Shown here: piece by piece, positions 23,650-38,212 of the stretch | How the letters are laid out: every line of letters begins with the position of its first letter | How positions within the stretch are numbered: the stretch's first letter is position 1 | Source: Candidatus Kaiserbacteria bacterium | GTDB lineage: Bacteria > Patescibacteriota > Minisyncoccia > Phycocordibacterales > JABAAK01 | DNA length: 51,547 nucleotides | Direction of reading: 5' to 3' | Assembly: GCA_026713605.1 (NCBI GenBank) | Contig: JAPOOC010000006.1 | Span: forward strand, 1-51,547 | Program-made: the position numbers and the translations under genes | Notes under the pieces: model-generated | The model's database searches: none | What the model was told of the DNA's origin: nothing | The model's input: the letters and a program-made list of their open reading frames with translations, nothing else

Positions 23650-23716
23650 CCTTTGTGCCTGTGTGATGTTTTTCCACGGGGGTGGTTTGGTATGGGGAGT
23701 GTGGTATACTTTTGCT
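23650..23716 (+). promoter_or_regulatory. Repeated promoter module, copy 1
   Basis: GTGTGATGTTTTTCCACGGGGGTGGTTTGGTATGGGGAGTGTGGTATACTTTTGCT then ATG. Confidence 0.8.
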
Positions 23717-24334
23717 ATGAAATGTACTTCTCTTTTTTGGGGCGGTGTTTTCTTTCCAGTGTTGGCGGTGCCGTTTTTTGTGTTTGCGGAAGGGTCTGTG
23801 CCTGTGCAAGATGTGTCGCAGGGGTATTCTATCGTTGATGCTGTCGTCGTCTTCTTTAAGACATTTGGTGTTGGTTTTGGTGGTGCGTTTGGTGTGATGT
23901 GGCTGATTGTTCGTATGGTGAAAGGCGATTTGAAAGATTGTATGGAAAAAATGGAGAAAACGCTTAAAGAGAGTATTGACGATCTCAAAAAGCGATTTGA
24001 AAGAATTGAGAATTGCATTATTAAGGTGAGTGATAGTCCTATTAAGTTAACGGAGGTAGGGCAGAAGGTGTTGCGTGAGAGTGGTGGGTTGGATTATCTT
24101 GCGTCTAACAAGGATTCTTTGTTGCAAGAGTTTTTTGACACAGATGACCCGTTTGTTATACAGGAGCGGGCGGTAAAGATTATTCGTGAAAAGATGGAGG
24201 TTGGTGAGTTTGTTGCGAATACTGAGTGGCTTTACAAGAATGGTAGCACTACTGATCAGGTTGTTGATGCTGTCGGCACAGAGCTTCGCGATATGGTGTT
24301 TCGTGTTAAAGGTATAGATGTAGATACTGGGTGA
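23717..24334 (+). CDS. TM-anchored protein with shared C-terminal domain (family member 2 of 3)
   Basis: SPIKLTEVGQKVLRESGGLDYLASNKDSLLQEFF...FVIQERAVKIIREKM...ELRDMVFRVKGI. Confidence 0.75.
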   Translation: MKCTSLFWGGVFFPVLAVPFFVFAEGSVPVQDVSQGYSIVDAVVVFFKTFGVGFGGAFGVMWLIVRMVKGDLKDCMEKMEKTLKESIDDLKKRFERIENCIIKVSDSPIKLTEVGQKVLRESGGLDYLASNKDSLLQEFFDTDDPFVIQERAVKIIREKMEVGEFVANTEWLYKNGSTTDQVVDAVGTELRDMVFRVKGIDVDTG

Positions 24335-24365
24335 CATCTGTTTCTCTGTAAACTAAAGCGGCTTT

Positions 24366-24414
24366 GGTTTTCCATGGGGGTGGTTTGGTATGGGGAGCGT
24401 GGTATACTTTTGCC
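24366..24414 (+). promoter_or_regulatory. Repeated promoter module, copy 2
   Basis: GGTTTTCCATGGGGGTGGTTTGGTATGGGGAGCGTGGTATACTTTTGCC then ATG. Confidence 0.8.
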
Positions 24415-25053
24415 ATGAATTATTTTTCATGGATTCTTGAACACATCGATACGGTTGCCGCTTTCGTTGTCGTTCTTATGGCCTTGCTCGGATTTTTTTC
24501 TCTGTGTTTTCGGAAGGTTCGCGATCTCTTCAAATTTCCGAAGAAGGTTGCTGATAATTTTGAATCATTGGAGAGTGATGTGAATCTTATCGGCACCACG
24601 CTCTCCAAGATGATTTCTTACTTGTCCAGCGGAGGCGACACTGACTCATTTGGTCTTGGTCACATGCAGGGTGAGTTGGGTGGACGATTTGGCAATCTGC
24701 AATCGCAATCTCCGGTGATGCTGACTGATTTGGGTAAGAAGAAGTTAGATGATAGTGGTTTGAAAGGGGCGATGGATGACAATAAGGAGGATCTTTTTGT
24801 GTTTCTTGAAAAAATCTTGCGGAAAGGTGATACTAATTTTGATATTCAAAAAAAATCGTTTCAGGTGGTTGATCGATTTCTTACAGATACAAAGAGTGTT
24901 GAGGATCTGATAAAAGAATACGCGTTTCGTGAAGGAATACGCAATCTGAGGGAGTTTGTTGAGATTGGCGGTATTTATTTGCGGGATTTGTATTTCGCGG
25001 ACAAGGAGATTGTTACTGATTATAAGAATGAAGTGCGGGTGCGCGATGCTTGA
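24415..25053 (+). CDS. TM-anchored protein with shared C-terminal domain (family member 3 of 3)
   Basis: SPVMLTDLGKKKLDDSGLKGAMDDNKEDLFVFLEKIL...FDIQKKSFQVVDRF...GGIYLRDLYF. Confidence 0.75.
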   Translation: MNYFSWILEHIDTVAAFVVVLMALLGFFSLCFRKVRDLFKFPKKVADNFESLESDVNLIGTTLSKMISYLSSGGDTDSFGLGHMQGELGGRFGNLQSQSPVMLTDLGKKKLDDSGLKGAMDDNKEDLFVFLEKILRKGDTNFDIQKKSFQVVDRFLTDTKSVEDLIKEYAFREGIRNLREFVEIGGIYLRDLYFADKEIVTDYKNEVRVRDA

Positions 25054-25123: not shown

Positions 25124-25187
25124 GTGCTTGTGTGATGTTTTTCCACGGGGGTGGTTTGGTGTGGGGAGTGTGGTATACTCTTGCCAT
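25124..25187 (+). promoter_or_regulatory. Repeated promoter module, copy 3
   Basis: GTGCTTGTGTGATGTTTTTCCACGGGGGTGGTTTGGTGTGGGGAGTGTGGTATACTCTTGCCAT then ATG. Confidence 0.8.
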
Positions 25188-36019: not shown

Positions 36020-36051
36020 ATCCCGCTGATTGAGCGGGGTTTTGTTTTTTT
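36020..36051 (+). terminator. Terminator after rplP
   Basis: CCCGCT GATTG AGCGGGGTTTTGTTTTTTT. Confidence 0.75.
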
Positions 36052-36126: not shown

Positions 36127-36155
36127 TTGACAAAAGTATCAAATTATTATATACT
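36127..36155 (+). promoter_or_regulatory. Consensus sigma70 promoter TTGACA-17-TATACT upstream of the RadC/JAB-like gene
   Basis: TTGACA 36127-36132, TATACT 36150-36155, spacer 17 bp. Confidence 0.75.
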
Positions 36156-36167
36156 ATTTTTGATGTT

Positions 36168-36265
36168 CGGTTGGGATTTTCCAACCTCTCTCTACACCTC
36201 ATACTACCATTTTCATACGCTATTAAGCGTGGTGATGTTGTGTGTGCCGGAACATCACCACGCTT
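36168..36265 (+). promoter_or_regulatory. Structured 5' leader: hairpin GGTTGG-GATTTT-CCAACC and a perfect 15-bp hairpin AAGCGTGGTGATGTT/AACATCACCACGCTT ending at the start codon
   Basis: Large arms at 36225-36239 and 36251-36265, ATG at 36266. Confidence 0.8.
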
Positions 36266-37006
36266 ATGACTATATATACAAAAATAACGGTGGGGACCTA
36301 CCTTACCCTTGTCGCATTGGTTGCGGGGTTGTTTTTTGTTGTGCAATCACCCTATGCGGAAGATGCTGACAGCATGCCCATCGCAGATTTGGAGGTGTTG
36401 TGTGATGGTGTGTGGCTGTATCCGGTAACACAACCGACCAGTGAATCAGAGAAAAACCTTTTTTATTTAATGCTTGCTGTGGCTGATTTGTGTGATGTTG
36501 TTTTTCAGCACCCCGTCCCAACCGCACATACTATTGGATGGTATTCCCGTGGTTCCTGGCTTAAAAACGGTGCGTATGCGGATGCACAGCGAATACAATT
36601 ATTGGAACAGATTTTTTATGAAAATACTGATATACGATTTAGTGATGTGGAACATATTGCTATTTTTTTCTATGATGATGCTTTGCGTCTTGTTAGTCGG
36701 AAGATTGTGGCAACTGGTAATCATCGTAGTGTAGGTATTGCGTTGGATGTTGTGATGCGGGAAGCGCAACGACTTGGAGCGACGCGTATCGTTTTTTCGC
36801 ACAATCACCCCTATGCCGCTTGCCTGCCTTCTGAGGCGGATCTTTCCGCTGTAGATGTGGCGGAGCAATACTTTTCCCCACTTGGTATGGTGGTACATGA
36901 TTTTGTTGTCGTAACGCAGGATTGCCTGTATTCACTTGAAGCACACAAAGGACATCAAACAGTCGCGTGGGCGCGACAGCAGCTTGGTTATCATTCTGGT
37001 GAGTAG
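36266..37006 (+). CDS. Secreted/membrane-anchored RadC-like JAB (JAMM) domain protein
   Basis: N-terminal TM/signal KITVGTYLTLVALVAGLFFVVQSPYAEDADS; JAMM-type SHNHPYAACLPSEADLSAVDVAEQYFSPLGMVVHDFVVV. Confidence 0.75.
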   Translation: MTIYTKITVGTYLTLVALVAGLFFVVQSPYAEDADSMPIADLEVLCDGVWLYPVTQPTSESEKNLFYLMLAVADLCDVVFQHPVPTAHTIGWYSRGSWLKNGAYADAQRIQLLEQIFYENTDIRFSDVEHIAIFFYDDALRLVSRKIVATGNHRSVGIALDVVMREAQRLGATRIVFSHNHPYAACLPSEADLSAVDVAEQYFSPLGMVVHDFVVVTQDCLYSLEAHKGHQTVAWARQQLGYHSGE

Positions 37007-37076
37007 GTTTATATTGTGCGCTGCTATTTCAAGGACATTTTGCGTGGGAAAGGCTCAGGCAGTACCCACATAACTG

Positions 37077-37176
37077 ATTGCAGGTAACTTGTGTGGCGGT
37101 ATCCGCCCGTACGATGTGCGGTCGGGTACGGCTACATTAGCCGAATAATAACCTAAAAAATAACTATGAAAAATAA
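37077..37176 (+). repeat. 100-bp leader repeat, copy A, ending in the first codons of the downstream gene
   Basis: attgcaggtaacttgtgtggcggtatccgcccgtacgatgtgcggtcgggtacggctacattagccgaataataacctaaaaaataactatgaaaaataa. Confidence 0.95.
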
Positions 37177-37582
37177 ATCAATTGAAGATCGTATGACCAT
37201 TGCAAAGAGCCATAAAACATCAGAAGAGACCTTGGTTGAACTTGCAAATGATAATGAATGGGTGGTTCGTTGTGCAGTGTGTGAAAACATAAATACACCA
37301 AAACAGATTCTTGACAAACTGTCAGATGATAAAAATGAGGGTGTTCTTTGGTCGGTATCTCAAAATGAGAACACACCACAAGAAACACTAAAAAAACTTG
37401 CCTTTCACAAAGAAAGTTCTGTGCGTGGATTTGTGGCAAGAAATCCAAATACACCAGCAAGAACGCTTGAACGAATTGTTGTTAATGATGATGATGAACT
37501 TGTTGTTAATGATGTAGCCATGAACCCGAAAGTTACAAAAAGAATTCTTGATAAGATTGACTTACGCAATAAGGTGTCCTAA
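37166..37582 (+). CDS. LRV/HEAT-like repeat protein
   Basis: Repeats of the type VVRCAVCENINTPKQILDKLSDD / GVLWSVSQNENTPQETLKKLAFH / SVRGFVARNPNTPARTLERIVVN. Confidence 0.75.
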   Translation: MKNKSIEDRMTIAKSHKTSEETLVELANDNEWVVRCAVCENINTPKQILDKLSDDKNEGVLWSVSQNENTPQETLKKLAFHKESSVRGFVARNPNTPARTLERIVVNDDDELVVNDVAMNPKVTKRILDKIDLRNKVS

Positions 37583-37706
37583 CAGCATGATGTATACACC
37601 AGACAGTCGGGTATTCACCGAGTGCCCCTCTGCCTGCTGTTTATAGTAGGTACCGATACTGCTCCTGCAGCCTTTGGTTAGGTAATGTGGCAGTCCCAGA
37701 CAACTT

Positions 37707-37806
37707 ATTGCAGGTAACTTGTGTGGCGGTATGCGCCCGTACTATGTGCGGTCGGGTACGGCTACATCAGCCGAATAATAACCTAAAAAATAACTATGAA
37801 AAATAA
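37707..37806 (+). repeat. 100-bp leader repeat, copy B
   Basis: Same as copy A with 3 visible substitutions; offset exactly 630 bp. Confidence 0.95.
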
Positions 37807-38077
37807 CAAAAAATTATCAACAAAACAAACACTAAAAATCGCTGCTATAGGTCTGCCAGCAACACTCCTTGGAATACTGGCAATTGGCAGTAGCAACGAG
37901 ATGGCTGCATTGTTAGTGTTTGCGATTGTGTGCGCTGCATACTTTTTACCAACCATATGGGCATGCAAAGAAAACCACCACAACAAGAATTCAATAGCGG
38001 TAATAAACTTCTTCCTTGGCTGGACTTTCATTGGCTGGGTAGTTGCACTTGCGATGGCCGGCACAAAAAGCCGGTAG
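37796..38077 (+). CDS. Superinfection immunity protein-like (Imm_superinfect family) small membrane protein
   Basis: FAIVCAAYFLPTIWACKENHHNKNSIAVINFFLGWTFIGWVVALAMA matches the family signature (YFLPTI...N...LGWT.IGW..AL). Confidence 0.85.
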   Translation: MKNNKKLSTKQTLKIAAIGLPATLLGILAIGSSNEMAALLVFAIVCAAYFLPTIWACKENHHNKNSIAVINFFLGWTFIGWVVALAMAGTKSR

Positions 38078-38177
38078 TGGCAGATTGTAAGCAGGTCCGC
38101 ATACCACAACTTAATGTAGAATGCTAAACTCAAGATTCAGTTTCAGTTCGGAATAATAACAAAGGATTACCATATCC

Positions 38178-38212
38178 CGCACCCCCTACACTCTGTAGGG
38201 GGTGTGTTTTGT
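38178..38212 (+). terminator. 11-bp perfect terminator hairpin
   Basis: CACCCCCTACA CTC TGTAGGGGGTG TGTTTTG. Confidence 0.75.

Follow-up and report, generated by a model that had tools for sequence, protein, structure and literature searches.

The window, the whole 51,547-nucleotide stretch of DNA analyzed here, is an entire contig of the 594-kb, 11-contig genome of a Candidatus Kaiserbacteria bacterium. Within it, an insert separates rpL16 from rpL29, a position at which seven of seven family relatives have no accessory gene between L16 and L29/S17; the spacing of two of these, G005 and G004, was also checked. In its size, gene content and relatives, the genome agrees with a CPR (Patescibacteria) affiliation. 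The insertion is lineage-specific. Its encoded proteins are a RadC-like protein, an LRV repeat protein and an Imm_superinfect-domain protein only, with no transfer machinery of its own. The features of the locus, in window coordinates, are as follows.

36020-36040, forward strand: intrinsic-terminator-like hairpin after rpL16, at the left edge of the insert (8 pairs, T-rich tail).
36127-36155, forward strand: sigma-70-like promoter, TTGACA-N17-TATACT, upstream of the RadC-like gene (11 of 12 positions; consensus match only).
36224-36267, forward strand: hairpin of about 16 bp adjoining the ATG of the RadC-like gene (z -5.2).
36269-37006, forward strand: RadC-like JAB-domain protein with a probable signal peptide (PF04002, 5.9e-17).
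37058-37176, forward strand: leader repeat copy A, containing the LRV start codon (blastn and alignment).
37091-37137, forward strand: long imperfect hairpin in copy A (predicted fold).
37166-37582, forward strand: LRV repeat protein, the bracketed insert (PF01816, 7.9e-12; GC 0.36, the 3.5th percentile of genes).
37689-37806, forward strand: leader repeat copy B, containing the Imm_superinfect start codon (blastn and alignment).
37721-37767, forward strand: counterpart in copy B of the copy A hairpin, with one pair broken (predicted fold).
37796-38077, forward strand: Imm_superinfect-domain small membrane protein (PF14373, 3.2e-16).
38106-38161, forward strand: candidate third, decayed leader remnant, ACAACTTAATGTAG ... 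GGAATAATAAC (weak, post hoc).
38178-38206, forward strand: intrinsic-terminator-like hairpin at the right edge of the insert, before rpL29 (13 pairs).

With a near-consensus promoter-like site behind a terminator-like hairpin at its start and a strong terminator-like hairpin at its end, the insert looks, from its sequence, like a self-contained small operon, and RadC, LRV and Imm are presumably co-transcribed. The bodies of the LRV and Imm genes differ in composition, with GC of 0.36 vs 0.43. No PADLOC model matched the LRV, RadC-like or Imm protein of the locus. The RadC-type JAB domain is found with an apparent signal peptide, and a strong 16-bp hairpin adjoins its ATG (36224-37006). In the same-genus relative G005, LRV and related repeat proteins form very large arrays (L140-L143, L206-L213), and dozens of matches to the window's LRV gene were seen there. 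Two further repeats were observed elsewhere in the window: an exact 65-bp direct repeat at the contig end (1-65 and 76-140), and a 64-bp promoter-like leader, with TATACT near the gene start, before three successive genes (23655-23718, 24353-24416 and 25124-25187).

By within-genome blastn, leader copies A and B are 94.1% identical over 119 bp (E about 2e-44), a repetition that far exceeds chance expectation. The original prediction of a near-identical repeat at this position was confirmed: the core is 97% identical, and across the 92 columns that align 37077-37168 with 37707-37798, mismatches occur only at 37103 (C/G), 37113 (G/T) and 37138 (T/C). Weaker similarity 5' of the core, also anticipated, is present at about four differences per 27 columns. 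Each copy reaches the predicted shared end, ATGAAAAATAA, which falls within the beginning of the downstream ORF, and the proteins that follow, LRV and Imm_superinfect, are unrelated as claimed, the body-to-body alignment score being at background. A decayed third leader may be present after Imm. This remnant was picked up by a gapped pattern with three matches genome-wide; its alignment score is non-significant, equalled by 21 of 500 shuffles and by 176 of 3000 genomic segments.

The start region shared by LRV and Imm fits the start context of the genome at large. Among 273 ATG starts, the sequence is A-rich upstream, has T at -1 in 63% of cases, and is A-rich after the ATG, with a Shine-Dalgarno-like motif at only 20 starts. 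In searches for further copies of the leader, blastn of the same genome with a 112-bp query returned copies A and B only, and blastn of 8 genomes from the family, 399 from the order and 392 from the class returned just the A-rich tail or short fragments. Nearly all matches in other CPR genomes are to this A-rich tail with ATGAAAAATA, which recurs because it is the general start context of the group; the few that fall elsewhere in the element are short pieces, about 20-31 bp in length (L007, L014, L031). A covariance model of hairpin plus tail, run over 299 genomes of the order, recovered only copies A and B. Two parts of the element, searched as exact 20-mers, had no match in the GTDB collection, exact 20-mers and a 27-mer of the tail had none in IMG/VR, and the element was not found in phage and plasmid collections; the genome containing the window may be missing from these collections. 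Among the collections searched, the leader element is confined to the RadC-LRV-Imm locus. The proposal that it belongs to a mobile cassette-leader family, recognizable in blastn and covariance-model searches by many copies before different accessory genes, is not supported: no copy lies outside the locus in any collection, about 790 relatives having been covered by blastn, and what was found is a duplication at this locus only, with no covariation and no other copies.

The predicted fold of the leader is a single long hairpin of 20 pairs, with two 1x1 mismatches and a 3-nt loop, at folding energies of -33.7 and -29.7 kcal/mol and shuffle z scores of -4.0 and -2.4 for the two copies. Three small alternative hairpins had been described; they are not predicted as separate folds, but survive as pieces of, or alternatives to, the one long stem. 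Compared with 300 gene leaders from the same genome and corrected for GC, both leaders fall within the top 2-3% for stability. One substitution breaks a stem pair, another falls in the loop, and the third lies outside the main stem. Covariation between copies A and B is zero, in a test that has little power with two near-identical copies, and Rfam searches at gathering and relaxed thresholds gave no relevant match for the leader. The suggestion of a structured regulatory RNA is not upheld, given zero covariation and a substitution that disrupts the stem, although the hairpin is nonetheless unusually stable. Such predicted strong folding is compatible with a function and also with chance and base composition; a regulatory role for the hairpin would be conjectural. 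A riboswitch or conserved regulatory RNA family was considered and is not supported, in the absence of covariation, of homologues in the genomes searched, and of any Rfam match.

The genome was scanned for direct repeats 40-260 bp long, with identity of 85% or more and a spacing of 0.2-4 kb. Twelve direct-repeat loci were found and no inverted ones; the twelve include some tandem gene duplications plus a tRNA repeat. The same scan found no direct-repeat locus in 400 kb sampled from other CPR families, a small control. GC between the repeats averages 0.412, versus 0.458 +/- 0.011 for random segments, and none of 400 simulations gave a value as low. At one of these sites (L177:17543-19829, G000 contig C7), a PD-Lambda-5 A+B pair is flanked by 81-bp direct repeats that correspond to the last 81 bp of an upstream 297-aa gene, recurring after the insert. 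At another (L177:11704-13843), three copies of the 3' end of an M16-peptidase-like gene (68 bp, 100% identical) lie around two inserts, one of which carries a second Imm_superinfect gene. At both sites the repeat is plainly of resident origin, since it consists of a resident gene's 3' end. Between aspS and scpA, a DUF3800 gene was also observed, flanked by a 121-bp repeat (L156:11138-12167) that contains a strong terminator-like hairpin as well as a consensus-like promoter; this repeat could be a duplicated small-RNA gene. In G007, from the same family, a TraG-like gene has had its 5' part duplicated together with the start codon (221 bp, 100%; L262:5919-10273), the duplicated start being joined to an internal fragment by deletion and followed by two genes without a Pfam match. 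The DNA between repeats is AT-rich in the present genome (G000) and in G007 but not in G005 or G004. The repeat-bracketed, AT-rich pattern is not uniform among relatives, since G005 and G004 lack it, and for that reason the idea that AT-rich inserts are a genus-wide trait was dropped.

The 119-bp repeat is probably the scar of an insertion-duplication, in which the AT-rich LRV gene inserted beside the Imm leader and that leader became duplicated. This reading is also favored by the lineage-specific insertion, the confinement of the element to one locus, the other repeat-bracketed inserts of the genome with their AT-rich interiors, the TraG-like duplication in G007, and the agreement of the shared start with the genome's general start context. 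LRV is read as foreign and the repeat as resident because GC is 0.36 for LRV, vs 0.45 for the repeat, which approximates the 0.458 of the genome; direct repeats, resident by composition, flank DNA of foreign composition, the arrangement that defines an insertion-duplication. Composition is the basis for calling the leader resident: the closest relatives, which are diverged, lack the insert entirely, and no strain with a single leader before Imm was found. The description of the element as mobile or recombinogenic divides into a part without support, mobility, and a part that stands in a general sense, since a gene of foreign composition is bracketed, the insert is missing in seven relatives, and other bracketed inserts occur.

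As we envisage the event, the leader and translation start would have belonged originally to the Imm_superinfect gene, with Imm present first and LRV arriving second. Incoming DNA would have recombined at the Imm leader, probably by homologous recombination, and left a leader copy on either side of the AT-rich LRV gene; either a single crossover or repair with template switching could have produced the duplication. The LRV body would then begin at the duplicated start motif, while the Imm gene would retain its own copy. In a RadC-LRV-Imm transcript, each copy would give a strong hairpin, perhaps with a stabilizing role, followed by a start region that is A-rich and has no Shine-Dalgarno motif. 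LRV and Imm have the same hairpin and start region because the leader is duplicated. The genome encodes ComEC; natural transformation has been demonstrated in Saccharibacteria, and conservation of com genes throughout the CPR phyla has been described (PMC10633639). Common horizontal gain has been reported for groundwater Patescibacteria (PMC12455944). Several points count against the insertion-duplication reading: the search found no strain with a single leader before Imm, G005 and G004 lack AT-rich DNA between their repeats, the control sample covers only 400 kb, and tandem duplications and a tRNA repeat are counted among the twelve loci. In addition, the lower similarity of the 27 bp 5' of the core is not what a single clean duplication predicts, unless the core has been constrained or converted.

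The same two leaders could have arisen by tandem duplication of a leader-gene unit, after which one body was replaced or diverged fully, so that only the leaders stay alike. Tandem arrays in G005 do keep start regions alike while bodies differ, as where a 393-bp repeat, 99.7% identical, runs across the starts of two genes with largely different bodies. We nevertheless think this origin unlikely, as LRV and Imm show no residual similarity, their bodies have unequal GC (0.36 vs 0.43), and divergence to zero conflicts with leader cores that are 97% alike, unless a body was swapped. The hairpin bears on another explanation, that the leader is functional and structured, a post-transcriptional regulator or an mRNA-stabilizing hairpin, with two copies selected for co-regulation. 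Placement of the leaders in the top 2-3% of 300 for GC-corrected stability, a similarly strong hairpin adjoining the ATG of the RadC gene in the same insert, and better conservation of the core than of the sequence upstream would all suit such a role. Covariation is absent, however, a stem pair has been lost to one of the three substitutions, and there is neither a homologue by sequence or covariance model nor an Rfam match, which makes selection for co-regulation distinctly improbable.

An integron-like cassette array, in which attC-like hairpins lie between promoterless genes, deserves almost no credence. An imperfect hairpin does separate successive small genes, with a possible decayed third copy after Imm, but inspection showed RYYYAAC/GTTRRRY boxes to be absent from both strands of the element, and the genome contains no further copies. 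The sole Phage_integrase protein found, in a genome that is about 92% complete, is of the Xer type, scoring 142 bits to TIGR02249 against a cut-off of 265. With core boxes and integron integrase both missing, the attC reading of the leader was rejected.

Little is known about single-gene gain in streamlined CPR bacteria. Repeat-bracketed, AT-rich inserts without a recombinase, some of them with defense genes, would offer a readable footprint of gene gain, even within a ribosomal-protein operon, and would suggest a route by which a new gene may borrow a resident leader and leave its neighbor unbroken. It is conceivable, though we hold it doubtful, that this family gains single genes recurrently and recombinase-free, with about 60-130 bp of resident sequence per site, often a leader with its start codon or the 3' end of a gene, duplicated around an AT-rich newcomer; resident genes would stay intact, and the newcomer would receive a ready-made start or terminator. 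The leader as such is only modestly interesting; the recurrence in this genome of AT-rich single-gene inserts flanked by repeats may merit attention.

Among known systems, integron cassettes with attC sites likewise have a hairpin-forming repeat between unrelated small genes, but this locus has no consensus boxes, integron integrase, or array of copies. Anti-phage defense islands come to mind because another bracketed insert in the genome is PD-Lambda-5 A+B and because Imm_superinfect is also a phage-exclusion type of domain, whereas the LRV, RadC-like and Imm proteins have no PADLOC match. Campbell-type (single-crossover) insertion-duplication also places inserted DNA between direct copies of a resident sequence that differs from site to site; here, in contrast, the repeat measures just 119 bp, around an insert of about 0.5 kb. 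The minimal mobile element (Saunders and Snyder 2002, as defined in PMC8627216) comprises one or more accessory genes flanked by conserved ones, has no transfer mechanism, and is consistent with movement through homologous recombination. The present insert lies in just this way between L16 and L29, a site that is empty in seven relatives, and lacks transfer machinery, but its LRV gene is in addition bracketed by a direct repeat of the neighboring leader, which the definition does not require. The leader element is thus ordinary in kind, resembling a minimal mobile element plus a flanking duplication.
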